Translations under genes and position numbers: made by a program | The notes under the pieces: generated by a model | The model's database searches: none | What the model saw: only the letters and a program-made list of their open reading frames with translations | What the model was told of the DNA's origin: nothing | Shown: positions 21,113 to 52,502 of the stretch, one piece after another | How positions within the stretch are numbered: the stretch's first letter is position 1 | How the letters are laid out: each line of letters begins with the position of its first letter | Source: Candidatus Zhuqueibacterota bacterium | Lineage (GTDB): Bacteria > Zhuqueibacterota > Zhuqueibacteria > Residuimicrobiales > Oceaniaggregativiventaceae | Direction: 5' to 3' | Assembly (NCBI GenBank): GCA_014728085.1 | Contig: WJMF01000069.1 | Span: 25,465-89,464, forward strand | Length of the DNA: 64,000 nt

Positions 21113-21532
21113 ATGATAGAATCTGGCACCATAATTTCTATAGAGAATGAACTCGCCACGGTCAAGATACACCGTGGGGAAAAGTGTGAGAGTTGTCATC
21201 TGTGTGATTCTTTTGGTTCCAACGAGATGAACCTGGTTGCCCTTAATCAAGCCGGAGCAGGTATTGGGGACATTGTTGATATTAAAGTAGAACCCGAAAA
21301 AGTGATCAAGCACTCGCTTTTAATCTTCATCCTGCCGATTATAGCTATGATTTTTGGTTATTGGATCGGTATAACCCTGGTCCCGGAAGCAAGCGGTGAA
21401 GGAAGTGGAATACTGGGGGCTTTTATTGCGTTGCTCCTTGTCTTTATAATCATCCGGCTTTATAATCATCACTATTCAAGAAATGAAAAATGTGCTGCAA
21501 AAATAATAGGATTCTCAAGTGACCATTCATAA
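21113..21532 (+). CDS. RseC/MucC-family SoxR-reducing system protein
   Basis: GTIISIENELATVKIHRGEKCESCHLCDSFG followed by two TM helices. Confidence 0.85.
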   Translation: MIESGTIISIENELATVKIHRGEKCESCHLCDSFGSNEMNLVALNQAGAGIGDIVDIKVEPEKVIKHSLLIFILPIIAMIFGYWIGITLVPEASGEGSGILGAFIALLLVFIIIRLYNHHYSRNEKCAAKIIGFSSDHS

Positions 21533-24500
21533 ATTGATATTTTTGCTTTTCTTGTTATTTCCGGCAATTCTGGTATTTCCGCAAACCAGTGATATTAAAA
21601 TCCTGTCTGCCAGGGATAACAGTCTGGTTGTGGAATTTTCACCACAGGAATGGCAGCAACACACCAAAAAGCTGGACAATAAAACATATTCAAAGTTTGC
21701 TTTCAAAGGTGCAGAAATGATGGGCGAGCCCGGATCGCCTCAGATTCCGGTCAAAGTGTTCACACTGGGAATTCCAGAAAACGCATCCACAGAGATCGAA
21801 ATTGTCGATTTGACATTCGAAGAAATCAACAATGTTCTACTGTTACCGGTGCCGTTTTCCTCCAATAAATCTCTTGGCACAGCTTTTAGTTACGTACCTG
21901 TACAAAATATTTACGCTTCTGCCGACGCCCTTCCGGCGGATCATGTTGTTACCGGTGATCCCTTTATTTTCCGCAGCCAAACCGTACAAAAATTGGTTTT
22001 GCAACCCCTGCAATTTTTCCCCGCACAAAAAAAGATTAAAAAAATCAACCGGATGACCATACGAATAGGGTTTTCAAATCACTATAGCCGTTCGTTCCAG
22101 CCGATGAAAGATGAACACTTTTATCAGAACCTGCTGAATTATGAACAAGCAAAAAAATGGCGCCACAGTCAACCCAGACCCAAACGTTCCACCTATAAAC
22201 TGGACCCCGATGCCTGGTACAAGCTCACCATCCAGGGTGATGGAAGCGGTGGAAAAGAAGGGATTTACAAGGTTACGGCATCCCAACTGCAAGACGCCGG
22301 TATACCTGTCGGTTCCATAGACCCCCGCACCCTGCAGCTCTATAACAATGGTGGTAAACCCTTGCCCGTGGACATCAGCATACCACGCCCGGATAGTTTG
22401 ATCGAAAACCCAATCCAGGTTGTTGGTGAAGAAGACGGCGCCCTGAATGCCGGCGATTATATTCTGTTCTACGGACGATCTCTTGAAGGTGTGGAATACA
22501 ATCAGAGTATAGGGGAATACGATCATTATATTAATCCCTATTCCCATGAAAATGTATACTGGCTGACCTTTGGTAAGGGTGCCGGTAAAAGAATCGCAAA
22601 ACGCCCCTCTCTGTCTACCGAGGGTCTCACCCCCGAACCCGGTTTTCGTCAAACTGTTTTTTGGGAACAGGAAAAGCATAATATCTTCGGTTCCGGCAGA
22701 GACTGGTTTGGATATCAAATGGGTAAAATCCAAAAATCATTTACCCACACCTTCGAGACCCCTGATGCGACGGCAGATGACAGTACAGTTGTCCGGTTTC
22801 AATTAGCGGTTGTCACCAACGGTCTGCATCCCTTTCGCTTTTTTGTGAACGAGACCTTTCTTTCCGAAACCAGTATCCGGGGATACTCCACCAGGAACAA
22901 CTATAATTATGTTCTGGACGATGTAACCTTGAGCAAGCAGAGCCTCATAGACCGCGATCAAAGCAATCTGGTGATCGAATACCCCGTGGAATCGGATTTA
23001 TTCATCTCCTACGTCGATTGGGTAGAGATAGAATACGACCGTCAGTTTATCGCCAAAGATGAACAGCTTGTTTTTACCAGTCCGCCGGAAAACAAAATTG
23101 CACATTATCAAATCGAGGGCTTTGCCGGCAATAATATTCGCATCCTCGATATTTCAGATATTTCTTCCATTGAAGAAATCGAAAACACCCTCATTCAGAA
23201 CAAAAATGTATCGTTCGCCGAGCAGGCGACCGATTTGGTTCCGACAAAATATATTGCCTTTACCCCGGCTGCCTATCGTTCTGTATCCGCAATTGAAAGA
23301 GAAGACAGAACGGATTTGCGCTCTGCCCGCTCTGCGGATTATATCATCATTACGCACGAAAAGTTTATTCAACAGGCACAAGAGTTGGCAAGTCTGAGAG
23401 AGACTTATTCAACTCAACGTCTCGAAACACAAGTTGTAACGATTTCTTCAGTTTTCAATGAATTTGGCTGGGGTATCCCGGATGTGGCTGCCATCAGAGA
23501 TTTTCTCGCCTGGGCTGACAAACACTGGAATGCTCCCCAATACGTTCTCCTTTTTGGGGATGGCCACTATGATTACAAAAATATTTTAAACTTCAATACA
23601 CCAAATCTTATTCCCCCCTTTGAAACCAGAGACCGTCATGAAAATTATTCCAGAACGTCTGATGATTGGTTTACCTATACGAAAGGAACCACAGCCGGCA
23701 TGCAGATGGCAATCGGACGGATTCCGGTTCAATCGATTGCTACGGCGCAAGCGGTTGTGCAAAAAATCATACAATATGAAACAGATGAAAGCTTTGGCGA
23801 CTGGCGTAAAGTGTTGACCATAATAGGTGATGACGAGCTGGGAGAATATGGTGAAGAACTTGAGCACACCCGCCAGGCAGAAACACTTGCTGAAAGTCAT
23901 GTTCCGGCAACTTTTGATATCGAAAAAATTTACCTCATGGAATACCCGCCGGTTCGTACGGCAAGCACAACAGGAATAACCAAACCAACGGCAACCGAAG
24001 ATCTTTTACACCGGATTAATCGGGGTACTCTGGTTTTGAACTTTATCGGACATGGCAACGACGAACTCTGGACCCATGAACACCTCCTGACCAGAACAGG
24101 CGATTTCGACCGTATTCAAAATGAAAATCGCCTTCCTTTAATTGTCGCTGCGACTTGCGAATTTGCTTACTGGGATCAACCCCAAAAACAAAGCTTTGCA
24201 GAAGATTTACTCAATGTCGCCGGCCGTGGTGCGGTAGGCCTCATCGCCTCCTCGCGGGCAGCTTTTTCCTCCGACAATGCCGCCTACAACTATGCACTTT
24301 ATGATAAACTCTTTTCACCCTATCAAAGCAGCGGCATGACCGAAAGGATCGGAATGGCCTCTCTGCTGGCAAAACAAAACACATTGAGCCGCGACAACAA
24401 GGAAAAATACCATGTTTTGGGTGACCCCACTTTGAGATTACGCGCTCCCCGTTATCGCGCAATTATCGAAACTATCGAGCCGGATACCATCCAGGCCTTG

Positions 24501-25499
24501 CGGAAAACCAAAGTGACCGGACACATTGAAAAGGATAATGCCCTGTGGAATGATTATAATGGCAAAATTTATCTGAGGATTATGGATTCCAAAAACAGGA
24601 AAACCTATGAAACAGAAGGAGGCTTGTCAATAAGCTACCTGCTACCCGGCAATGGACTCTTTCGCGGCAGCGCTGATGTTGAAAATGGACACTTTGCGGC
24701 GGATTTTATCGTCCCCAAAGACATATCCTATGGAGGATCGCAAGGCAAAATCAGCGTCTATTTCTGGAATCAGTCGGCAGAAGGAACCGGTTATAGAGAA
24801 AAATTGATGGTCGGGGGTACAGCAAAAAACCTGATCGATCATACCGGCCCCTACATACGTGCCTATTTTCATCAACCCAATTTTTCTGCTGGAGATTATA
24901 TACGTCCCAGCGATACTTTGCATGTAGAAATCAGCGATTCTCTCAGCGGTATCAATATTACCGGTGAAATCGGCCACCAAATCAACATGACCTTTGACAA
25001 TGATATCTTGAATTCGAGAAATATTACCGATTTTTTTGAATATGATCCAAACAGTTATATTACCGGGAAAATACACTATCCGCTCTATAATCTCTCCCTG
25101 GGTAAGCATCAGGTGGAAATTAAAGCATGGGACAATTCGAACAACTCTTCTATCTATGAAACCTGGTTTACCGTTGTTGAAGATTCAATCCTGAAAATCC
25201 GCGACCTGCTAACCTACCCGAATCCGATGACAGAAGAAACAGCGTTTTGTTTTGAAATCACTCAGGATGCAAACGTATCGATCAAGGTATTCAGCCTGGC
25301 AGGAAGGCTATTAAAAACATTTCATCCAGTTTATACTCAGGCCGGCTATAACGTTCTGCCCGAACGCTGGGACGGCACAGACGAGGAAGGTGACTATCTC
25401 GCCAATGGTGTCTATCTCTATAAATTAACCGCAAAATCATCCTGGGAAGGCAAGGAGCATAAAATCAACAAAATCGGAAAAGTCATTATCGCACGTTAG
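21519..25499 (+). CDS. porU: Type IX secretion system sortase PorU-like (peptidase C25, gingipain family), GTG start
   Basis: Signal peptide; C25 region LLFGDGHYDYKN, LVLNFIGHGNDELWTHE (His), LIVAATCEFAYWDQP (Cys); C-terminal sorting-like domain YPNPMTEETAFCFEI...GVYLYKL. Confidence 0.88.
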   Translation: MTIHKLIFLLFLLFPAILVFPQTSDIKILSARDNSLVVEFSPQEWQQHTKKLDNKTYSKFAFKGAEMMGEPGSPQIPVKVFTLGIPENASTEIEIVDLTFEEINNVLLLPVPFSSNKSLGTAFSYVPVQNIYASADALPADHVVTGDPFIFRSQTVQKLVLQPLQFFPAQKKIKKINRMTIRIGFSNHYSRSFQPMKDEHFYQNLLNYEQAKKWRHSQPRPKRSTYKLDPDAWYKLTIQGDGSGGKEGIYKVTASQLQDAGIPVGSIDPRTLQLYNNGGKPLPVDISIPRPDSLIENPIQVVGEEDGALNAGDYILFYGRSLEGVEYNQSIGEYDHYINPYSHENVYWLTFGKGAGKRIAKRPSLSTEGLTPEPGFRQTVFWEQEKHNIFGSGRDWFGYQMGKIQKSFTHTFETPDATADDSTVVRFQLAVVTNGLHPFRFFVNETFLSETSIRGYSTRNNYNYVLDDVTLSKQSLIDRDQSNLVIEYPVESDLFISYVDWVEIEYDRQFIAKDEQLVFTSPPENKIAHYQIEGFAGNNIRILDISDISSIEEIENTLIQNKNVSFAEQATDLVPTKYIAFTPAAYRSVSAIEREDRTDLRSARSADYIIITHEKFIQQAQELASLRETYSTQRLETQVVTISSVFNEFGWGIPDVAAIRDFLAWADKHWNAPQYVLLFGDGHYDYKNILNFNTPNLIPPFETRDRHENYSRTSDDWFTYTKGTTAGMQMAIGRIPVQSIATAQAVVQKIIQYETDESFGDWRKVLTIIGDDELGEYGEELEHTRQAETLAESHVPATFDIEKIYLMEYPPVRTASTTGITKPTATEDLLHRINRGTLVLNFIGHGNDELWTHEHLLTRTGDFDRIQNENRLPLIVAATCEFAYWDQPQKQSFAEDLLNVAGRGAVGLIASSRAAFSSDNAAYNYALYDKLFSPYQSSGMTERIGMASLLAKQNTLSRDNKEKYHVLGDPTLRLRAPRYRAIIETIEPDTIQALRKTKVTGHIEKDNALWNDYNGKIYLRIMDSKNRKTYETEGGLSISYLLPGNGLFRGSADVENGHFAADFIVPKDISYGGSQGKISVYFWNQSAEGTGYREKLMVGGTAKNLIDHTGPYIRAYFHQPNFSAGDYIRPSDTLHVEISDSLSGINITGEIGHQINMTFDNDILNSRNITDFFEYDPNSYITGKIHYPLYNLSLGKHQVEIKAWDNSNNSSIYETWFTVVEDSILKIRDLLTYPNPMTEETAFCFEITQDANVSIKVFSLAGRLLKTFHPVYTQAGYNVLPERWDGTDEEGDYLANGVYLYKLTAKSSWEGKEHKINKIGKVIIAR

Positions 25500-33173: not shown

Positions 33174-36100
33174 TTATTTTACTAAAAGTAGTCGGCGGAG
33201 TTTGGAGTATTGATTTGCCTTAAAAACGATAAAGTATATACCACTTGAAACAGCATTGCCTTCCAGGTCTTCTCCCAACCAGTTAATACAATGTCGACCT
33301 GCCGGCAGGGTGTCCTGGATAAGTATATCCACCGTCTGACCCATAATATTGATAATCTTTAGCACAACGCTGCTTTTTTCAGGCAACTGAAAATGAATCG
33401 ATGTTTGACTGTTAAATGGATTGGGATAATTTTGTTCGAGATAATAATTCAAAGGCTGAATGGTACCGATTTCTTCTATTCCGGCAACAGCTAAATGTTT
33501 ACCCTCGTTGTCACGCAAATCAATTTGATTGATCTTTATGGGAGAGCTTTCCCATTGTTGGAGTTTAAAATCAACACTTAATAATTGGTGGGTTCCCTTT
33601 TGCACAGGAGAACGGTTTACCGATAAATTTGCAAAAGAAATATCCAAAAAGCCGGAGGTTGAAAAATCACTAAAAAATGCGTATTGATCGCTGGAATTGT
33701 TTCCTCTGCCGGCATATACTCTTTTTATCGACAGACTGGAGGGAATGTATTGCAAAACAATATGTCCCATGGAAACATCATTTACCCCATCAACATAAAG
33801 AATTGCTGTGTAATGATCTGAACCTTTTTGTATATCCCAGAAACATCGCTTAAGGGTTGATTTCTGAATGGTATTGTCTTGTTGTTTATTGTGATTGAAC
33901 CAGTTCCACATTTGGGCAAACACGAACAAATCTTCATAATTGACAAGTTTATCGGCAACAGTAGCAATCAGAGGAATTTTACCATTCGCCGGCCCAATAT
34001 CACCTTTTCTGTCATTAGCGGGTTTCCAATAGGTCGAAAAGAGAGCGAAATCCTGCATGTCTATATCGCCATCTGCATCAAAATCACCTGTCAGATTTTC
34101 CAGAGGATAAACTTTCGCTCCGGCGGTGAGAGCAACAATTGTAGAAAGATCCGTCCGCCACAATTCTGCTGATTGGATATCAAGATTGCACGTATTTTCA
34201 TTTAGGACCTTAAACTCTATAGAACAAAGATTTCCAAAACCGAACATACCCCTGGTTGTATCCTCATAAACAATCCTTAGATCGATAACCAACTCGCCTT
34301 CACTTATATCAAAATCCAGGTCAGCGGAGACGGTATTGGACTCAAAAAAATCACCTTCCGTAACTTGAACAGCGCTTAGCCGGGTTGGATCATAGGTAAC
34401 TTTAAAGCGACCGGACTTGAAAGCGTTTACCTGATCTACAAAGAGATTGACAAAAAAAGATTCATTTTTTACCCCGACAACCTCCGCGGGCGATATAGAA
34501 ACGGAAGGGGATAACAAGCTGAATCGCGTGTTGGTCGAACCGCCTTTTTCTCCCCGCTCTATCACAACCGAAATATTGCGCACCTTGACTTCGGATTGTT
34601 GTGCTTGAAATATAATTCGATGCTGCGACGAAATAATACTCTGAATCAAATCAAAAGCCGACTTGAAACCGCTTTCAATATCAAAAACCAAGCCACCGGA
34701 TTTTTCTGATAGAGTGCGATAAGACTCTGTATCCATAGCAATACTGAACAAATGCAATCGGTTATCCAAAATGGAATTTGTAACCGAATCAAGAACGGCG
34801 CTGGAGGCAACAGAACCGTTCAGGGGAGAATCCGTACATAAAAGAGCAAATCTTTGTCCATATGTTCGAAAATCGAACGCCTCGATTGTGCTCAGTGCCT
34901 TCGGTAGCGATTGAGACGCTGCATTATTCTTATAGGATATCACATCAAACCAACCCATCAGTTCGTTTAAATCCGATGTAAAGGAATACGCAAACTCAAC
35001 CTCCTCGTGATAGGTAATCAGAGCATAACGGGGGATGAATCCTTTTGCTTTCAGAATATTATCAAGTGTGGATATACTTGTTTGCAATGCTTCTATTTCA
35101 GCTTGCATGCTCGAAACGGTATTGAGAATGAATACAATATCCATAAATATATTATCGCCCGCCGTAATATTTTCGATACTCTCTATCGGTCGGCTGAGGC
35201 CATTTTCTAAAAGCGAAACCTGATCAGCACTTATATTGTCGACAGTTCTGTTGGACGTCTGATCAAAAACACTAAGATAGCAGGAAACATCCGGAAAATT
35301 CCACGATTCAATTTGATGGATATTCACATAATATCCGCTCAGATTGGTTTCGCTGCTTGCCGGAATGATTTGCAGAATAAGGCCTCCATCACCCACGATC
35401 ATACCCTTCAGAGGCGAAACAAGGGCAATGTCATTAAGGTCGGATTCGACCCGGGTATCCACCTTTTCCCAGGTCTTTCCCCCTGTACGGGTCTTAAAAA
35501 GAGTACCCTGATCACCGATTGCATAGCCGTTCACAAGATCACTGAATACAACGGCATTGAGAGGAAGATCCGATACTTTTTTTGAAATCCAGGTTTCTCC
35601 ACCGTTCGAGGTTTGACATATTTCTCCCTCCGAAGTGACCGCCCAGCCTCTTTTGCTATCTAAAAAACACAAATCACGAATCGTTGACGTCACTCCGCTG
35701 ATTTGATCTTGCCAGGACCTACCGGCATCAACCGTTTTCATAATTCGGCCCAACGGGCCTGCGACCCAACCTGTCGTATTGTTGATAAAATCCATTGCAT
35801 AAAAAGCCAACGGATCGTTGCGGTAGCGATGCAACCAGTTGTTTCCGGCATCGGTGGTCTGTTTAACAATGCCCTTGTCACCTATAGCCCAACCGATGGA
35901 ATCAGAAACAAACTCGAGTGCGTAAAAAGCATATTCAGATGAACTGAATTTTTGTTGCCAGGTCTTGCCGCCATCTTTACTTTGTAAAATCATTCCCGAG
36001 TTTTGACTGTTTTTACCAACAATCCAGGCATCTGAATGACTTGTAAAATAGACATCATAGAGTTGATGATTGCCGGGTAACGGATTCTGATTCCACAGTG

Positions 36101-39100
36101 AACCACCATCTTCGGTGGTGGCGAATAAACCTTTGGAGCCTATCACAACGGCTTCGAGTGAGTCTTTAAAGAAAATTTTATGTAAATTGTCGCGAATCGA
36201 CGTCGTTTTTTGGTTTAACTGAAAATTATAGCTCCATACCGGCAGGGTTGCAGCAGAAGCCTGTGAAGCGGTTGTCGCCCTTGCGTAGCTCCCATCCGTA
36301 CTATAGGCAAATGCAGCATAATAATATTTCATTTCCGGAGAAAGACCGGCATCTATAAATCCGGACAGCTTGCCAGTATAGACCACAATACCATCTGAGG
36401 TGTTTTTGGGAAAAGATCTCGAATTGCGCAGCACCATAACACCATCAAAGTTCGGCGAGGATGGATTCTGCCAGCGACAGTAAATCTTATCGGGTGCCGC
36501 CGCAGAGGCGATAAATCCTTTGACATTTTCGATAACTCTGCCGTACCGGTAACGATCAAAATCATAGCCGCCTTTATCCGCTTTTTGTACGAGAACCTCT
36601 ACATTCCGGCCTTTATCATCTTCATCGATATTGTGCGTGTTATAGGTACATACGTATTGTGATGATATGATCAACCCGATATGATCCACAATCCGAGCAA
36701 AATCGCTGTTTATATCGAAATAAAATCCGCCTGTTTGAACGGCCAGTTGATGAAACTGTTCAAAATTGGGACCAGCAATATCCGCAACAATTCTCTTTTC
36801 CTGCAGCAGATCAGTGATGGATTCAGTGGTATGCAGAGTCGTACCATCTCCCGGATCTCCGGCCTGATGATATTCGGCATCAGTAATAAGAATCATCAAT
36901 CGCTGGCTGATTCCCCTGAAACTCAATTCGCCGGCTTTTGCCATACCTTCGAGTGCATTTTCTTTATAATCTCCACCACCGACCGGAGACAGGGTTTCAA
37001 TCCACTGCTTAAACTGGACAATATCATCGGTAAAATCAAAAGTGCGTTCAACTTTATCGCTAAAAGAAATCAAAGCCAGACGGTAATCAATTCCTTTGGC
37101 AGCCAGGGAATCTGCAAAACTGGAAGCTCTGTTTTTCAAATCCTCAATTTCTTGCGTCATGCTTGCTGTCACATCAAAGACGAATACGATATCAGCCTTT
37201 CCGCCGGAACTGGTATTGATCTGCTCAAAAGCTTCAGGAGCTTCTTCGACGCCATCTTCCTTGACCAGAATATCGCCCATTTCGATATCTGAAACCGGCT
37301 GAAGTGTTTTATCATCCACAATCGTAATAAAGTTAACAATCGTGGGAAAGCGGCTGATATCGATGCTGTTTATGGTAACCTTGTAACCCTCTACATCCAC
37401 ATCATCCAGTGTTGTCGCGTAACAAAAGGCCCCGTTTTGCAATTCGGAAAAGCGGTTATAGTGATCGAAAGCAAAAGCTGAATAGTAATAAGTAGTTGCC
37501 GGATCGACATCATAATCGATAAAATTTTCACCGGTACCCCGGTAAACCTCTGCGCCATCATAAGGATGAGAAGGGAATATATCCTTTCTTCGAAGGATTT
37601 TACAACCTGAAAATTCTGGCTGTGCAGGATTATCCCATGTCAGCTCAATAGCATCTGAGCCTCTGGTTTCACAAACCAAGTTTTGAATGCTATTCGGTTG
37701 CTCCTCAGATAAATCCAGTTTGATAATCGTGCCCCGATCACCTACCGCCCAGCCGCAGACCTGATTGATAATCACAATATCGTTTAGGTCTTCCGTGGTT
37801 CCGCTGTTGTCTATCCCCCAGGATTGACCGCCATTGCTCGTGCGCAGAATAACACCATTTGATCCGGCAATAAATCCCAGATTGGGATTGATGAAATCAA
37901 TCGAGTTTAAGGGATCATCCCCATATCTGGTTAATTCTTCCCATTTTTCACCCCCGTTTTTCGAATGCAAAATCACCCCGCGACTGGTTACGATAAAGCC
38001 GGTATTGGAATTAACAAAATAAACATCCAGCAAATCCGGACGCTCGCCACCAATGTTTTTTGAAATCCAGTCTTCTCCGCCATTGTTTGTAAACAAGACC
38101 GTATTATGTTCTCCAACGACCCATCCGGTATCGGCATTGAGAAAAAATAAATTGAACAAATCCTCGCTCGTGCCACTATTCAGACTCTGCCACTCTATTC
38201 CGCCGTTTACCGTCTTTTCGATTTTGCCGGATGCTCCGACCAGATAACCGACTTTTGAATCCAGCATGAAACATTCCCGAATAGCTCCCGGCGATGGGCT
38301 GGGAAAACGCATCCAGTTATAGCCGCCATTTTTCGTACTCAACAGTAAAGCATTCCCCTTGTCGTCATAGCCACCAATCCACCCCAGCGAATGATCGCGA
38401 AAGAGTATATCATGAAAATGGAACGTCTCATTTTCCGGAATAACATCCCAGCCGGCTCCACCATTGGTTGTGGCCAATATTTTACCGTTTTCACTAACCG
38501 CCCAGGCAGTCAGACTGTCGACAGCGCTAATCGCAGTCAGGTCTGTGAGAAAACCGGATTTTTGCTGACGCCAAATGGTGGGATATTGTACTTCCGGTTG
38601 AACGACAATATAATCAGATCTCGTTTTGTAAAAATAGTTGTCTTTGCTTTTTATCCGCAGTTGAACGCTATAACTACCGGCAGTTGTATATTCAAAAGCC
38701 GGAAAGCGGTCATAAGAATCAATTTTCCCGTCTCCATCAAAATCCCAGGCCCACTCTGCAATAGCAGAGAGCGAATTGTTGGAAGATAGAGCAACAATCT
38801 TTGGCTTTCTAAGCGATCTGACCTCTGCATCGGGACGATCGACTTGAATGACATTAACAGATTCGATTTTCACGCTATCAAGAGAAAACACTACATCCCC
38901 TATATACCAATAATCTCCGTCCCCGTTGACCGGTACGTTGATCGTGTTCATCAAGCCGTTTCGATCATAAATATCCAAATAGGCACCTGACTCGCTTAGT
39001 GCCGGATATTTGGAATAGTTTTCAACATATAATCGATAACGATTCAGTTGAGGTTGATAAAGCGTAATAATTTCCGGACCAAAGCCCCGGTTAAAATCCT

Positions 39101-40415
39101 GATTACATATCGCCCAGGGCGGCCCTGTATTTTGGCCTTGTTGTTGTGAAGAAATATCATATATTCTGCCGGACAATTCAGGCGTCAACAAATGCAAATC
39201 GAGATCACCCGGGCTCTGCCCCCAATGCAGTTCGAAACGATACTGGTTCTCTTTTAATAGAGGAGATAGTAATATATTAAATATATTCGGTTTATTTCGC
39301 TCCAGCCGGACTTTGGTTTGTATAGACGCGTAACCCGGTGCTATAATCGAAATAAGCTGCGAACTCTGCAAGCTGTTGTCATATAATTGAACCTGTAAAG
39401 GCGCATGACCCTTTCTGGGAACAGCATAAAAATCCGGAACCACCTCAAGCAAATCGATATTCCTGATCCTGTACCCTCCGGTGTCATCTGTGGTTGTGGT
39501 TAAATCGCCAATAGATACCCTGGCGTTATCAATCACATTTCCCGATTCGGCGTCCATTACACGTCCCATGATCAGGGGAAAATCATTCTTGCCCTCCCCC
39601 AGTGTTACGGTAACAGCTGTATAGCGACCGGGTGAAGATTTCGCTTCCGCCCGTATAACCGGTTTACAACCGACAGTGGGCGAATATCCGGACGTTGCAT
39701 TAAACTTTTGCCTCCATTCCCCACGAGTCAAAATGATTCTATCCGGCACGTTCAAACAGGACGGCGCCGAAGAGGTAAGAAAAATGGTGTCGTTCACTGC
39801 CGTATCTCCAGGGACGCATTCAAACCCTATACCGGTATAGAACGATGCCATAGTCGAGTCCGGAATCAGGCGTAGCTCAGGTCGCTTTTCTGCCGAAAAT
39901 CTCAATGCAAAACGCTCGATATCCAGATCGGTTCTGGCATAAAATTCCAGCCGTGAGCCGATCCACTGACGCAGATCTCCGTACCAGTATTCCCTGGAAG
40001 GAAGCAGTGAAAATTCTGTTCTGGGCTCCCCTGAGCAGAAAGCGCGCAAAAATGGTCCTCCGTCTCTACCCCCAACCGGGAACCATTGCATAACACTTTC
40101 TTGCGTATTCCAGCGTTCATAGCCATTGTTAAAAGTATGTAAAGAGATCGAGTCGGTTTTACCCACCAGCTTGAAATCATCCACATCAAAACGGATGGCC
40201 GAGGCGGAATAATTGATTTCAAACCACACGCTCTTTACATCACTAAAAATCTCAAAAAACTTGCTGCTATCCTGCGGATTGAATGCATCGGGGATTATCG
40301 GGATGGATACTTTTGTCCATTGATTTTGGTCGGTTATTGATGATATATTTCTCTCAACAATTTGAGGAAATGCAACGGAATATAATATTGATATATAGAA
40401 AAAAATCTTTTTCAT
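33174..40415 (-). CDS. Giant (2413 aa) secreted modular protein: carboxypeptidase-regulatory-like, PKD, two YCF48 arrays, two vWA domains, FN3-like, cohesin-like, dockerin-like, T9SS type A sorting domain
   Basis: Signal peptide; repeated YCF48 motif (GWAVGDRGTIIKL, GFIAGSNGVILRTSNGGQSW); vWA DIVFVFDVTASM and DIVFILNTVSSM; dockerin-like GDFDADGDIDMQDFALF; C-term YPNPFNSQTSIHFQLPEKSSVVLKIINIMGQ. Confidence 0.85.
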   Translation of the reverse strand: MKKIFFYISILYSVAFPQIVERNISSITDQNQWTKVSIPIIPDAFNPQDSSKFFEIFSDVKSVWFEINYSASAIRFDVDDFKLVGKTDSISLHTFNNGYERWNTQESVMQWFPVGGRDGGPFLRAFCSGEPRTEFSLLPSREYWYGDLRQWIGSRLEFYARTDLDIERFALRFSAEKRPELRLIPDSTMASFYTGIGFECVPGDTAVNDTIFLTSSAPSCLNVPDRIILTRGEWRQKFNATSGYSPTVGCKPVIRAEAKSSPGRYTAVTVTLGEGKNDFPLIMGRVMDAESGNVIDNARVSIGDLTTTTDDTGGYRIRNIDLLEVVPDFYAVPRKGHAPLQVQLYDNSLQSSQLISIIAPGYASIQTKVRLERNKPNIFNILLSPLLKENQYRFELHWGQSPGDLDLHLLTPELSGRIYDISSQQQGQNTGPPWAICNQDFNRGFGPEIITLYQPQLNRYRLYVENYSKYPALSESGAYLDIYDRNGLMNTINVPVNGDGDYWYIGDVVFSLDSVKIESVNVIQVDRPDAEVRSLRKPKIVALSSNNSLSAIAEWAWDFDGDGKIDSYDRFPAFEYTTAGSYSVQLRIKSKDNYFYKTRSDYIVVQPEVQYPTIWRQQKSGFLTDLTAISAVDSLTAWAVSENGKILATTNGGAGWDVIPENETFHFHDILFRDHSLGWIGGYDDKGNALLLSTKNGGYNWMRFPSPSPGAIRECFMLDSKVGYLVGASGKIEKTVNGGIEWQSLNSGTSEDLFNLFFLNADTGWVVGEHNTVLFTNNGGEDWISKNIGGERPDLLDVYFVNSNTGFIVTSRGVILHSKNGGEKWEELTRYGDDPLNSIDFINPNLGFIAGSNGVILRTSNGGQSWGIDNSGTTEDLNDIVIINQVCGWAVGDRGTIIKLDLSEEQPNSIQNLVCETRGSDAIELTWDNPAQPEFSGCKILRRKDIFPSHPYDGAEVYRGTGENFIDYDVDPATTYYYSAFAFDHYNRFSELQNGAFCYATTLDDVDVEGYKVTINSIDISRFPTIVNFITIVDDKTLQPVSDIEMGDILVKEDGVEEAPEAFEQINTSSGGKADIVFVFDVTASMTQEIEDLKNRASSFADSLAAKGIDYRLALISFSDKVERTFDFTDDIVQFKQWIETLSPVGGGDYKENALEGMAKAGELSFRGISQRLMILITDAEYHQAGDPGDGTTLHTTESITDLLQEKRIVADIAGPNFEQFHQLAVQTGGFYFDINSDFARIVDHIGLIISSQYVCTYNTHNIDEDDKGRNVEVLVQKADKGGYDFDRYRYGRVIENVKGFIASAAAPDKIYCRWQNPSSPNFDGVMVLRNSRSFPKNTSDGIVVYTGKLSGFIDAGLSPEMKYYYAAFAYSTDGSYARATTASQASAATLPVWSYNFQLNQKTTSIRDNLHKIFFKDSLEAVVIGSKGLFATTEDGGSLWNQNPLPGNHQLYDVYFTSHSDAWIVGKNSQNSGMILQSKDGGKTWQQKFSSSEYAFYALEFVSDSIGWAIGDKGIVKQTTDAGNNWLHRYRNDPLAFYAMDFINNTTGWVAGPLGRIMKTVDAGRSWQDQISGVTSTIRDLCFLDSKRGWAVTSEGEICQTSNGGETWISKKVSDLPLNAVVFSDLVNGYAIGDQGTLFKTRTGGKTWEKVDTRVESDLNDIALVSPLKGMIVGDGGLILQIIPASSETNLSGYYVNIHQIESWNFPDVSCYLSVFDQTSNRTVDNISADQVSLLENGLSRPIESIENITAGDNIFMDIVFILNTVSSMQAEIEALQTSISTLDNILKAKGFIPRYALITYHEEVEFAYSFTSDLNELMGWFDVISYKNNAASQSLPKALSTIEAFDFRTYGQRFALLCTDSPLNGSVASSAVLDSVTNSILDNRLHLFSIAMDTESYRTLSEKSGGLVFDIESGFKSAFDLIQSIISSQHRIIFQAQQSEVKVRNISVVIERGEKGGSTNTRFSLLSPSVSISPAEVVGVKNESFFVNLFVDQVNAFKSGRFKVTYDPTRLSAVQVTEGDFFESNTVSADLDFDISEGELVIDLRIVYEDTTRGMFGFGNLCSIEFKVLNENTCNLDIQSAELWRTDLSTIVALTAGAKVYPLENLTGDFDADGDIDMQDFALFSTYWKPANDRKGDIGPANGKIPLIATVADKLVNYEDLFVFAQMWNWFNHNKQQDNTIQKSTLKRCFWDIQKGSDHYTAILYVDGVNDVSMGHIVLQYIPSSLSIKRVYAGRGNNSSDQYAFFSDFSTSGFLDISFANLSVNRSPVQKGTHQLLSVDFKLQQWESSPIKINQIDLRDNEGKHLAVAGIEEIGTIQPLNYYLEQNYPNPFNSQTSIHFQLPEKSSVVLKIINIMGQTVDILIQDTLPAGRHCINWLGEDLEGNAVSSGIYFIVFKANQYSKLRRLLLVK

Positions 40416-40450
40416 AAAATTGCTCCCGGGCGATATCTCATCGTCTATAT

Positions 40451-41281
40451 CTATCGAACCCGCACTGTACCATTGAGAGATACAACCGTAATCGGCTTTG
40501 CTTCCTGGTCGAATATTCCGAGGTTCGTATCGACACTGGGATCGGCGATGATCGTGACAGCTGTTGAATCATTTTTCAGCGTTCGAAATTCCAATTCAAT
40601 CAGGTCGCCATTACCCTCTACCGCTTTGGATGCCGGCAAGATACTGAAAAAACATTCCGCAATTCCCTTTTCATTATCCAGCTTTTGATGCAAAATCGCC
40701 ACTTGCCCGCCATTATGAGATAAAAAATCCATACACGGCGCCATGGAATTGAGCTGCAGGATCTCGGAATCATATTCGAGTCGTATACCCGCAGTTGCAA
40801 GCCGTTCAATATGCCGCGTACTGATACGTAAATGCAGGTCAGCGGATGAATGCACGCTCGTATCCGAAGGTGTTATGATCAAAGCAGGAGAAATAAAACG
40901 AAGTACAATATTGACTTGTTGATCTTCTCCCGGGTTTAAATCCACGGTGTTTGAACCGCTCAACAATTTTACCGAATTCACCCAGCCATTGACCGTAAAG
41001 GTGCGGTTCTTACCTGCGGGCACCTGAATAGAAACCGAAGCACCGGCCTGATCCATATTCATCTCTTTCGAGAGAGTATCCATATTTGCAGCAGAAACCA
41101 TTAACTCCATCCTGGTAAGAACATGGCAAACAGCTGACCGATTTAATCCGGCCAGGGTGGTGTGGATCGTCATCGAATCATTTTTATCAGGCCCAAAGGG
41201 GTTGTAGGTCTGACATGATATTGAAAAAACAAAGACCCAAAAAGTAATGAATAACCTGGGTTTCATCGCGCTGATCATCAT
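40451..41281 (-). CDS. Lipoprotein with C-terminal cohesin-like domain (start may be 41266)
   Basis: Lipobox VFSISCQTYNPFGP; C-terminal segment IRLEYDSEILQLNSM...GNGDLIELEFRTLKNDSTAVTI resembles cohesin. Confidence 0.65.
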   Translation of the reverse strand: MMISAMKPRLFITFWVFVFSISCQTYNPFGPDKNDSMTIHTTLAGLNRSAVCHVLTRMELMVSAANMDTLSKEMNMDQAGASVSIQVPAGKNRTFTVNGWVNSVKLLSGSNTVDLNPGEDQQVNIVLRFISPALIITPSDTSVHSSADLHLRISTRHIERLATAGIRLEYDSEILQLNSMAPCMDFLSHNGGQVAILHQKLDNEKGIAECFFSILPASKAVEGNGDLIELEFRTLKNDSTAVTIIADPSVDTNLGIFDQEAKPITVVSLNGTVRVR

Positions 41282-41294
41282 AAAACTCTTGTAA

Positions 41295-42104
41295 TTAATA
41301 CCATTGAACCGATATGGTCACATTGGCTTCTTTTTCTTGTTGTTCTTTCGTTATGTAATAATATGCTCCACCTGCAGTCGTTGCCATGGTTAACCAAAAC
41401 CAGAGTTTTTTATAAAACGGGGTCCCGCCTTGCCGGCTGAATGTTTTCAAGCGAACTTTTTCCCCGCGCAACTCGGCAATTTCATCATCTGTCAAAAATC
41501 GCACTTCAACAAATTTGGTTTCGGCAAGATTTCCAAATTCGTCAAGAGCCCGGATTTGATAAAATATATAGGGATATTCTGTGATTTTTTCAGGTAAGGT
41601 TGCACCATATTGATACCCTGACAGGGAAACGGTTACGTTTGAGGTTGAAATATATCCTCTCAAGCCTTCTTTGTTCAGAACACGGTAGAAACGGTCTCCG
41701 GTTCGGGACACAAAAAGCCGGGTTCCCGCGGCAACGCTTGATAAAATCGGTGACTGCGTATTCGCTTCTGAATAAACACGGGCTGAATCAGAATTCACTG
41801 TGACTACAACCGGAACTGTTTTTTCTTTTTCCATGCCGGGAAAATCCCCTTCCACTGCCTTGCCACCATACTTTATTTTGATTGTCGAACGTCGAATCCT
41901 GTTGTTGTCACCGATATAAGCAATAATATTAAAGGATTCACCTCTTCTTCCAACATTGATAACCTCATGAGCGATAACGGGGACTGTCGTATCGAGTTCC
42001 AACGTGGCAGATGTCATTTCCATCAGCGGTGCAGCGAACAGGTAAAAGGGTAAACATAGTAACAAACAAAATGTGATTGTTTCAAAGCATTGCCAATGTT
42101 TCAT
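41295..42104 (-). CDS. SH3b-domain secreted/membrane protein with C-terminal TM segment
   Basis: SH3b pattern VVTVNSDSARVYSEANTQSPILSSVAAGTRLFVSRTGDRFYRVLNKEGLRGYISTSNV; C-term KKLWFWLTMATTAGGAYYYI. Confidence 0.7.
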   Translation of the reverse strand: MKHWQCFETITFCLLLCLPFYLFAAPLMEMTSATLELDTTVPVIAHEVINVGRRGESFNIIAYIGDNNRIRRSTIKIKYGGKAVEGDFPGMEKEKTVPVVVTVNSDSARVYSEANTQSPILSSVAAGTRLFVSRTGDRFYRVLNKEGLRGYISTSNVTVSLSGYQYGATLPEKITEYPYIFYQIRALDEFGNLAETKFVEVRFLTDDEIAELRGEKVRLKTFSRQGGTPFYKKLWFWLTMATTAGGAYYYITKEQQEKEANVTISVQWY

Positions 42105-48952: not shown

Positions 48953-49217
48953 AAAAGATTCCATCCGATATAATTAAGAACCGTTTTTTCCCTTGAACAC
49001 TCCCGGATTTGACTATCTTTATCTGCGAAATCGAACCGGAACAAGACAAATTTCTCAATGTCCGTGCAATGCCCCATATTTGACTTGCTTTTTCAGTATA
49101 CCTATTTTACCTTTAATCATCATCCCCTGTTTACCAGTCCCGGCATCGACATATCTGGGTACAAAAAAGATTGAAAACCTGAGAATTAAAAGCGTGATTT
49201 ATACTTTTTTGAGACAG

Positions 49218-52200
49218 ATGAACATTTACAAAATGGACTTGTTTAAAGGGTTTCTTTTTCCGGCTATATCCTTTTTTCTTTTGTTGCCCTTTCATGTCAT
49301 GCCGGCCCAATATACCAATTTAAGCTTTGAGGAAATTTCCATAGAAGATGGCCTGTCACAGAGCATCGTAAATTGCATTATTCAGGATAATGTCGGATAC
49401 TTGTGGTTTGCAACAGAAGATGGCCTCAATAAATATGATGGATATCATTTCACCATATTCCGCTATGATCCGGGTGATGACAATAGTCTTAGCTATAATG
49501 AGATTCGCTCTATCTATCAGGACACCTCCGGTAATTTTTGGATCGGCTGCTTTTATGGCGGGCTGAATAAATATGATCCCAAAGAAAAAAAATTCACACA
49601 TTATCTGCATAGTGAAGACAATCCGTCTAGTCTGAGTCATAATAATGTCGAAGCAATCACTGAGGACGAAGAGGGGAATCTCTGGTTCGGCACCGATTTT
49701 GGATTAAACAGATATGACAGAAAAACAGATAATTTTTATGTCTATCTAAATGATCCCGAAAACCCCAATAGTTTGAGTCACAATACCGTTAACGATCTAT
49801 TCATTGATCTGGACGGTAGTCTCTGGGTTGCGACAGACAAAGGGTTAAACCAATATAATGCAATCCATGACCAGTTTACGATTTACCAACACGATTCATT
49901 TTCCCATATCGGTCTGAGCAACAATGTCATCACATCCATCTGTCAGGACAACAACGGTATTTACTGGATTGGAACAGAAAACGGCTTGAACCGCTTTAAT
50001 CGCGACAAAAACGAATTCATAGCGTATTATCACCAATCGACCGACCCCCACAGCCTCAGCCATAACATGATCAATACAATTTATCGGGATTCCAAAGGCT
50101 ATATCTGGGTCGGCACCGAAGGCGGTGGAATCAATATCTTTGATCCCCCAAAAAATCACAGCCGTAAAATCAACTTTATAAATTATCAAAATGATCCTCT
50201 TGATGCCACCAGCCTGAGTAAAAATGAAGTTCGTTGTATTTACGAAGACCGGTCGGGTATCATTTGGCTTGGCACTTATGGCGGAGGAAGCAATAAAGTA
50301 CAAAAACGAACAAAACAATTCAGCATTTACAGGGCTGTCCCGAATAATCCCAATAGCTTACCCAGTGAAATTGTCTGGTCTTTCTATGAAGACCCTTCCG
50401 GTATTCTATGGATAGGGACGCACGGTGGAGGCCTGACCCGGTTGGACAGAAAAAATAATCAGTACACACATTTACAACATAACCCCAACGACCCAAATAG
50501 CCTCAGCAACAATATCGTAAGAATTATTTACCCAGATCCTTCTGACCCGAATTGCCTCTGGATTGGAACCCACGGAGGCGGTCTCTGTAAATTTGATATC
50601 CCTACAAAAACATTTATCTGCTTTTTGCACGATCCCAATGATCCTGCGAGTATCAGCCATAATGAGCTGCGCTCCATTTATAAGGATCGATCCGGAACGC
50701 TCTGGATCGGCACCAATGGAGGCGGTCTCAACCAAATGATATCTCAGGACAACCTAACTCTTTTTAAACATTATCGCCACGACCCTAACAACAACCACAG
50801 CCTGAGCAATGATTATGTAAGAGTAGTATATGAAGCGCCTGAAGAAGCGGGTAAAACTCTATGGATCGGCACCCAGGGGGGAGGCCTTGAAAAATTTGAC
50901 AGAACAACCGGGAAATTTTTACATTATCAACATGATCCGGACAATATCAATAGCCTGAGTAACAATTATGTTCTCTCCATGTACGCCGATTCGTGCGGAA
51001 TGTTTTGGATTGGCACATGGGGAGGAGGAATATGCAAGTTCGACCGTAAAACGGAATCCTTTAAAAACTACACGATGCGGGACGGCTTGCCCCAAAACGA
51101 AATATATGGATTCCTGCAAGCTGAAGACGGCGACCTCTGGATCAGTACGAATAATGGTCTTTCAAAATTCAATCCAAGAACAGAACATTTTAAAAATTAT
51201 AATATTCAAGACGGTTTGCAAAGCAACGAATTTAACGGCGGTGCTTTTTACAAAAGCGACGACAATGAGATGTTCTTCGGCGGTATTCACGGATTTAATG
51301 CCTTCTTCCCGGAAAATATCAAAGACAACATCCACGTTCCACCAATTGTCCTTACCTCGATGCTAAAATTTAACCGGGAATTTCCATTGTCTAAACCTTT
51401 AACCGACTTGAAAGAAATTACATTATCCTATAAAGATTACATATTTTCATTCGAATTTGCCGCTCTTGATTTTACTTCGCCAATGAAAAATAAATATGCC
51501 TATAAAATGGCAGGACTGGATGAGGTTTGGGTTCAGACCGATGCCTCGAAAAGATTTGCAACCTATACAACGCTTGCACCAGGAAAGTATATCTTCAAGG
51601 TGAAGGGGTCGAATAATGACGGCGTCTGGAATGAAAAAGGAACCTCCATAAATATCGTCATTACGCCTCCATTTTGGAAAACGTGGTGGTTTATACTGAT
51701 TATTGCTTGTGCACTTGCAATGATGATCCTTTTACTCTACAAAAGAAGATTGCATAACATTAAAATGAAAATTGAATTGCAAGCCGCACATGATGCCCAA
51801 ATGTCAATTATGCCGCAATCTGATCCAAAACTTGAAGGCTTTGACATTGCCAGCACCTGCCTTCCGGCAAACGAAGTGGGAGGAGACTTTTTTGATTACC
51901 TTTGGCGGGATGAAAAGCACACTGAACTGGTTATTGCTATCGGTGATGTTTCGGGTAAAGCCATGACTGCAGCAATGACCGCTGTTATGGCCAGTGGCAT
52001 AGTCAACGCCAAGGTATACAAAAACAGATCTATGCAAGAAATAATGACAAAAACAAATGTTCCGGTATATCATAAAACCGAAAAAAAAGTCTTCATTACC
52101 CTGTGTCTGGCCTTGTTAAACAGCACAAAAAAAGAGCTCTGTTTTTCGAACGCCGGTTTAATGGAACCGTTGTTGATCTCCAATGGTTCTATCAACTATT

Positions 52201-52502
52201 TGAAATCACTAGGGCCGAGATACCCTTTGGGTGTAGCCCAAGATACTGTTTATAAAGAGAAAAAGGTCGCCTTGAAAAGCGGAGATGTTTTGATTCTACT
52301 GACTGACGGTATTTTAGAGGCGCAAAATCGCAGCAAAAAAATTTATGGTGAGAAGAATTTGTTGCAGTTGTTAAACAGAATCGACACAACTGAACACTCT
52401 GCCAGAATTATTGCAGAACAAATTATCAAAGACGTGGAAAAATTTACAGGAAAGGCCGCACAGCACGATGATATCACCATGGTGGTTGTAAAGATCAAAT
52501 AG
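49218..52502 (+). CDS. Two-component-regulator-type propeller sensor (about 14 Reg_prop repeats) + Y_Y_Y + TM + SpoIIE/PP2C phosphatase
   Basis: Repeats such as GTLWIGTNGGGLNQM; Y_Y_Y YKMAGLDEVWVQTDASKRFATYTTLAPGKYIFKVKGSNNDGVWNEKG; PP2C ANEVGGDFFDY, IAIGDVSGKAMTAAMTAVMASG, LLTDGILEAQN, HDDITMVVVKI. Confidence 0.9.
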   Translation: MNIYKMDLFKGFLFPAISFFLLLPFHVMPAQYTNLSFEEISIEDGLSQSIVNCIIQDNVGYLWFATEDGLNKYDGYHFTIFRYDPGDDNSLSYNEIRSIYQDTSGNFWIGCFYGGLNKYDPKEKKFTHYLHSEDNPSSLSHNNVEAITEDEEGNLWFGTDFGLNRYDRKTDNFYVYLNDPENPNSLSHNTVNDLFIDLDGSLWVATDKGLNQYNAIHDQFTIYQHDSFSHIGLSNNVITSICQDNNGIYWIGTENGLNRFNRDKNEFIAYYHQSTDPHSLSHNMINTIYRDSKGYIWVGTEGGGINIFDPPKNHSRKINFINYQNDPLDATSLSKNEVRCIYEDRSGIIWLGTYGGGSNKVQKRTKQFSIYRAVPNNPNSLPSEIVWSFYEDPSGILWIGTHGGGLTRLDRKNNQYTHLQHNPNDPNSLSNNIVRIIYPDPSDPNCLWIGTHGGGLCKFDIPTKTFICFLHDPNDPASISHNELRSIYKDRSGTLWIGTNGGGLNQMISQDNLTLFKHYRHDPNNNHSLSNDYVRVVYEAPEEAGKTLWIGTQGGGLEKFDRTTGKFLHYQHDPDNINSLSNNYVLSMYADSCGMFWIGTWGGGICKFDRKTESFKNYTMRDGLPQNEIYGFLQAEDGDLWISTNNGLSKFNPRTEHFKNYNIQDGLQSNEFNGGAFYKSDDNEMFFGGIHGFNAFFPENIKDNIHVPPIVLTSMLKFNREFPLSKPLTDLKEITLSYKDYIFSFEFAALDFTSPMKNKYAYKMAGLDEVWVQTDASKRFATYTTLAPGKYIFKVKGSNNDGVWNEKGTSINIVITPPFWKTWWFILIIACALAMMILLLYKRRLHNIKMKIELQAAHDAQMSIMPQSDPKLEGFDIASTCLPANEVGGDFFDYLWRDEKHTELVIAIGDVSGKAMTAAMTAVMASGIVNAKVYKNRSMQEIMTKTNVPVYHKTEKKVFITLCLALLNSTKKELCFSNAGLMEPLLISNGSINYLKSLGPRYPLGVAQDTVYKEKKVALKSGDVLILLTDGILEAQNRSKKIYGEKNLLQLLNRIDTTEHSARIIAEQIIKDVEKFTGKAAQHDDITMVVVKIK

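Follow-up and report, generated by a model that had tools for sequence, protein, structure and literature searches.

The 64,000-nucleotide stretch of DNA analysed here (the window) contains a genuine and conserved three-gene module on the minus strand, encoding an SH3b protein of 269 aa (41295..42104), a predicted lipoprotein of 276 aa (40451..41281) and a giant protein of 2413 aa predicted to be secreted by the type IX system (T9SS; 33174..40415). From sequence comparison, we consider the chances about evenly balanced that the lipoprotein and the giant are a dedicated cohesin-dockerin pair acting in trans, which would hold the secreted, vWA-bearing giant at the cell surface. A more specific reading is put forward tentatively, at somewhat below even probability: a diderm cohesin-dockerin receptor-ligand pair, kept between distant lineages, whose divergent dockerin (enlarged loop 2) would be exclusive to one giant and matched by one lipoprotein cohesin per genome, and which would tether an adhesin or sensor to the surface as a single-copy lock. 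The three ORFs were found where the original prediction had placed them, with spacings of 13 and 35 nt, and the unit goes beyond chance, since its gene order recurs in relatives and a two-gene core of it is found in two distant genomes.

The second gene product has a hydrophobic N-terminus followed by a cysteine in the lipobox position (Cys-23), which was unchanged across 19 aligned proteins, and with its signal peptide and lipobox Cys it is predicted to be a lipoprotein. Its mature part is built of a low-confidence linker, a beta-rich N-domain (~aa 36-125) and a C-terminal cohesin (~aa 132-276, 40454..40888). The Pfam cohesin profile PF00963 gave the latter 24.3 bits, which exceeds the cut-off (24.1) by a narrow margin of 0.2 bits. 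A PDB search with the single sequence returned only chance matches, and the alignment profile was needed to obtain the match to 5g5d (E 4.8e-4). In the AF2 model (pTM 0.72), the cohesin region had a pLDDT mostly of 91-97, and Foldseek returned cohesins as nearly all of the best 50 PDB matches, with a TM(target) of 0.81 to 2xdh. By profile and by model, the C-terminal domain of the lipoprotein thus has a cohesin fold, as had been proposed from the sequence at the outset. When the window genome was searched with the lipoprotein profile, only the lipoprotein itself and the cohesin of the giant were matched.

The giant comprises two YCF48 arrays and two vWA domains, then a cohesin, a dockerin-like module (Doc), a second cohesin-like domain and a T9SS tail (all on the minus strand); the original prediction had overlooked the second cohesin-like domain, both vWA domains, both YCF48 arrays and a CarboxypepD/PKD region. 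In that region, a CarboxypepD_reg-like segment (aa 282-320, 39456..39572; 25.8 bits) and a PKD-like stretch (~aa 540-605; PKD_4, 25.1 bits) remained below their cut-offs, which both profiles exceeded in several relatives. Pfam PSII_BNR scored 171 bits in nine stretches across the protein, and the two beta-propeller arrays lie at aa ~623-900 (YCF48/PSII_BNR-type, 37716..38549) and aa ~1405-1690 (YCF48-type, 35346..36203). The first vWA domain (aa 1010-1289, 36549..37388) was above the Pfam cut-offs (VWA_4, 66 bits), and an alignment of 17 proteins displayed D-x-T-x-S and a downstream ITDA, so that it has the DxS/TxS motif and the downstream Asp of a putative MIDAS. The second vWA domain (aa 1700-1965, 34521..35318) was matched by VWA_4 in two stretches and resembles the vWA domains of relatives, and its MIDAS motif is degenerate (NTVSS). 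Pfam detected neither a glycoside hydrolase nor a CBM in any of the three proteins, in line with the earlier remark that no glycoside hydrolase was seen here; a "glycosylhydrolase" NCBIfam match within the YCF48-type propeller region of the giant was below cut-off (72.9 vs 175 bits).

At the C-terminus of the giant, the sorting tail (aa 2330-2410, 33186..33428) scored 30 bits with TIGR04183 (NCBIfam cut-off 23) and 28.5 bits with Pfam Por_Secre_tail, so the T9SS sorting domain assigned to it earlier held. The T9SS sortase PorU is encoded in the window outside the operon (21519..25499, plus strand; NF033707, ~909 bits vs a cut-off of 420), ~8 kb from the 3′ end of the giant gene, and the window genome encodes at least 150 T9SS tails. 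With a type A sorting domain and a sortase in the same genome, the giant has the predicted features of T9SS cargo, and the presence of PorU and of so many tails makes its secretion likely. T9SS sorting tails are removed on export, and Doc, which precedes the tail, would therefore stay on the mature giant.

The region preceding this tail was analysed in detail. Cohesin 1 (Coh1; aa 1968-2100, 34116..34514) matched PF00963 with 26.1 bits (cut-off 24.1) over aa 1983-2074, within the interval 34110-34510 to which a cohesin-like domain had been assigned; the Foldseek matches of Coh1 were likewise nearly all cohesins, again with a TM(target) of 0.81 to 2xdh, and the profile of the giant's C-terminal region matched many PDB cohesins (best E 2.9e-6). 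The cohesin-like domain 2 (Coh2; aa 2185-2318, 33462..33863) appeared as a beta domain in the AF2 model and received no Pfam cohesin call in the window giant; the top Foldseek match of the C-terminal model was the cohesin dyad 3l8q. Between them lies Doc (aa 2108-2175, 33891..34094), for which the initial description as a dockerin-like EF-hand segment stood only in part. Its EF-hand loop 1, DFDADGDIDMQD (34050..34085), is canonical, with acidic residues at positions 1, 3, 5, 7, 9 and 12 and an invariant D at positions 1, 5 and 12, but in the EF-hand-like loop 2 (DIGPANG...VADKLVNYED, 33930..34001) the initial ligands and the terminal D..VN.ED are set apart by a long insertion. Dockerin_1 (PF00404) covered the first EF-hand only, with 20.5 bits against a cut-off of 22.9 (E 5.5e-4), and since Doc is below the profile cut-off, it cannot be classed as a type I dockerin by profile. 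In five relatives, Dockerin_1 was not listed by Pfam at E <= 0.01. The Doc alignment had a mean column identity of 70% across 18 proteins, and its profile placed dockerins at the top of the PDB matches with weak E values from 0.006, aligned mainly to the first EF-hand; in profile-profile comparison with the other dockerins of its own genome, the first EF-hand alone was aligned. The same profile also matched xylose/aldose reductases in the PDB, but only over a short second-helix motif, and these matches were rejected as chance.

As a separate observation, about 12 proteins of the window genome (L034-L043, L046 and L051) end in a dockerin that comes soon after an HRNH/RNH motif, lies near the stop codon and has no T9SS tail behind it.

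The sub-threshold dockerin label, the insertion in loop 2 and the low AF2 confidence count against a pair in trans, as do the flanking of Doc by the giant's own cohesins on both sides and the failure to recognise a surface-export signal in the lipoprotein. Because two cohesin-like domains adjoin Doc, the rival reading of an intramolecular arrangement has to be taken seriously, although we judge it unlikely: Doc would be a calcium-stabilised piece packing on the giant's own cohesins in a recurring T9SS C-terminal cassette, and the lipoprotein cohesin would be a plain beta-sandwich binding something else, for example a vWA domain. It would fit the vWA-Coh1-Doc-Coh2-T9SS ending, which was found in every giant whose C-terminus is in sequence, and also two T9SS proteins of the window genome (L033 and L044) that, judged by eye, have a Coh-Doc-Coh-like layout and no linked lipoprotein, as well as one relative (G003) with a second Doc-bearing giant without an adjoining lipoprotein. 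In the AF2 model of the giant's C-terminus (pTM 0.37), Doc was not packed with confidence against Coh1 or Coh2, which is weak evidence against such an arrangement; Doc was left unresolved (pLDDT ~30-48), so that the model says nothing about contacts within the giant. Two further results that speak against it, the distribution of the lipoprotein and the divergence of the domains, emerged from the comparison of genomes.

In a search of 60 relatives, homologues of all three proteins proved to be concentrated in the window genome's own order, many genomes of which are KSB1 MAGs; the rest of the class gave only weak lipoprotein and SH3b matches. The three genes are direct neighbours, with their arrangement unchanged, in 17 of the 22 genomes of the order (the window and 16 relatives), are separated by contig ends in three others (G007, G009 and G019), and are represented by the giant alone in G005 and G021, where the contig is masked or short. 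The survey of three-gene synteny proposed as a check in the original prediction thus revealed order-wide conservation. The position of the locus beside greA is shared with several relatives, and the propeller and vWA parts of the giant differ among species. Clear lipoprotein homologues were found solely in genomes that also have the giant, which is not what an intramolecular role of Doc would lead one to expect. Across 82 genomes of the phylum, Doc was confined to these giants and occurred once per genome except in G003 and G013, the latter carrying a second complete operon; the Doc-bearing giant and the lipoprotein co-occur at near 1:1 per genome. In G003, the second Doc-bearing giant (L062, contig C313, 8892-12446, plus strand; 1184 aa) occupies a greA-UbiA site without adjoining SH3b or lipoprotein genes. 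In G017, a second SH3b and lipoprotein copy without a giant was observed (L219, 5991-7762, minus strand), in which the SH3b frame is split and the lipoprotein end is altered. This copy is likely decaying, as would be expected if the parts of the unit work together. A literature search for KSB1 and dockerin found no paper.

Two distant genomes, one of them titled candidate division Zixibacteria, were found via the vWA profile, and each contains exactly one core lipoprotein and one core giant (2/2). The core lipoprotein of 182 aa consists of a signal, a lipobox Cys, a short linker and a cohesin, and nothing else; its gene overlaps by 4 nt that of the core giant of 1114 aa, which has the order vWA-Coh-Doc-Coh-T9SS. 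At these loci, neither an SH3b gene nor the lipoprotein N-domain nor propellers were present.

Across the order, Doc had a mean pairwise identity of 65%, while the lipoprotein cohesin reached 46%, Coh1 33% and Coh2 27%. Among the other parts, the value was 30% in the lipoprotein N-domain, 46% in the T9SS tail and 47% in vWA. Between the distant genome and the order, the corresponding values were 65% (Doc), 42% (lipoprotein cohesin), 28% (Coh1) and 22% (Coh2). If Doc had no partner other than Coh1 or Coh2, one would expect the constraint on these two to equal or exceed that on the lipoprotein cohesin, and their far faster divergence argues against the intramolecular arrangement. Doc may, however, be the more conserved simply for structural reasons, as a small module that binds calcium. 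Collectively, the identity pattern and the decay in G017 favour, without proving, pairing of Doc in trans with the lipoprotein cohesin, and binding between lipoprotein cohesin and giant dockerin is consistent with the conservation pattern.

The SH3b protein was matched by Pfam SH3_3 with 36.9 bits (cut-off 27) at aa 107-157, in agreement with the SH3b domain assigned to the first gene, and this domain seems to split a segment that is Ig-like by eye. Its N-terminus is signal-like, and a Gly/Ala-rich hydrophobic stretch lies near its C-terminus; as a helix, this stretch scored weakly in the protein of the window, but most relatives exceeded the threshold. In the SH3b proteins of the order, the hydrophobic stretch is commonly followed by a short conserved VxVxVxW end. 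The signal-like N-terminus and the hydrophobic stretch would put the SH3b protein in the envelope, which, together with the finding that no surface-export signal was recognised in the sequence after Cys-23 of the lipoprotein, would suit an export or assembly factor, in which a periplasm-facing lipoprotein and the SH3b protein chaperone the giant to the T9SS. We regard this explanation as quite improbable: the genome has at least 150 T9SS tails and one such lipoprotein, so general secretion does not need the lipoprotein, and the SH3b gene is missing beside the two-gene core of the distant genomes. In a pair acting in trans, the SH3b protein would have an accessory role.

The lipoprotein cohesin could also be a general receptor, that is, a one-cohesin scaffold for many dockerin-bearing secreted proteins, since ~20 dockerin-like matches (weak ones included) stand against two Pfam cohesin matches in the genome. 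Most of the other dockerins, however, belong to a different sequence class, many being located at the extreme C-terminus behind HRNH, and it is the operon's dockerin class that accompanies the lipoprotein, both within the phylum and in the two distant genomes, making this explanation very unlikely.

In the favoured model of a pair in trans, the giant would leave through the T9SS and lose its tail to PorU, so that the propellers, the vWA domains and the Coh-Doc-Coh end come to lie outside the cell. Anchored through its N-terminal lipid and presumably exposed at the surface, the lipoprotein would present its single cohesin, which may bind Doc of the giant in a calcium-dependent manner; this contact would keep the giant on the cell surface, where the MIDAS-type vWA domain and the propellers may do adhesive or sensing work.

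The cohesin fold of the lipoprotein and the giant is common to the type I and type II pairs of cellulosomes (for example OlpA, OlpC and ScaB; PDB 1ohz, 3ul4, 4dh2 and 3l8q), and EF-hand loop 1 of the giant resembles a dockerin repeat. By analogy with OlpA and OlpC, the window unit may follow the same logic, in which a secreted protein is received by a cohesin anchored to the cell. Unlike cellulosomes, it has no glycoside hydrolase or scaffoldin array and combines a single cohesin on a predicted lipoprotein with T9SS secretion, and unlike cellulosome dockerins, Doc is internal between two cohesin-like domains and has the long loop 2 insertion. Instead of a multi-cohesin scaffoldin with dockerin enzymes, one lipoprotein cohesin and two Pfam cohesin matches genome-wide were found, and the cellulosome reading was ruled out, there being neither enzymes nor a scaffoldin array.

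Non-cellulosomal cohesin/dockerin modules were reportedly reviewed by Peer et al. in 2009, and both the lipoprotein and the giant models had the non-cellulosomal A. fulgidus cohesin 2xdh among their best matches by fold. Compared with such modules, the window pair is distinguished by its linkage in an operon, its near 1:1 occurrence per genome and its conservation throughout the order and in two distant genomes. Cohesins and dockerins outside cellulosomes have been reported from many genomes, with their function there stated as unknown (PMC5244752). Cohesin/dockerin proteins have likewise been inferred in another uncultured phylum, in Ca. Stygibacter of the Cloacimonadota, which has separate dockerin enzymes and a scaffoldin of 3755 aa; the latter contains repeated cohesins and CBMs and a conserved T9SS-type CTD, for which a role in attachment to the cell has been proposed (PMC8542988). 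Unlike that scaffoldin, the window unit is a single-cohesin lipoprotein with a vWA/propeller giant. An operon-linked, near 1:1 pair without a cellulosome signature in its genes defines a specific and testable partnership, for which the two-gene core supplies small domains fit for binding and structure work. If true, the pairing would explain how a T9SS-secreted giant stays on the cell, and a cellulosome-style lock and key would serve something besides cellulose.

Elsewhere in the window, a protein of 1169 aa (48993-52502, plus strand) had two sub-cut-off matches, one to the propeller part of PorZ (124 bits, cut-off 260) and one, at its C-terminus, to SpoIIE-type phosphatase, and it looks like a sensor-phosphatase.
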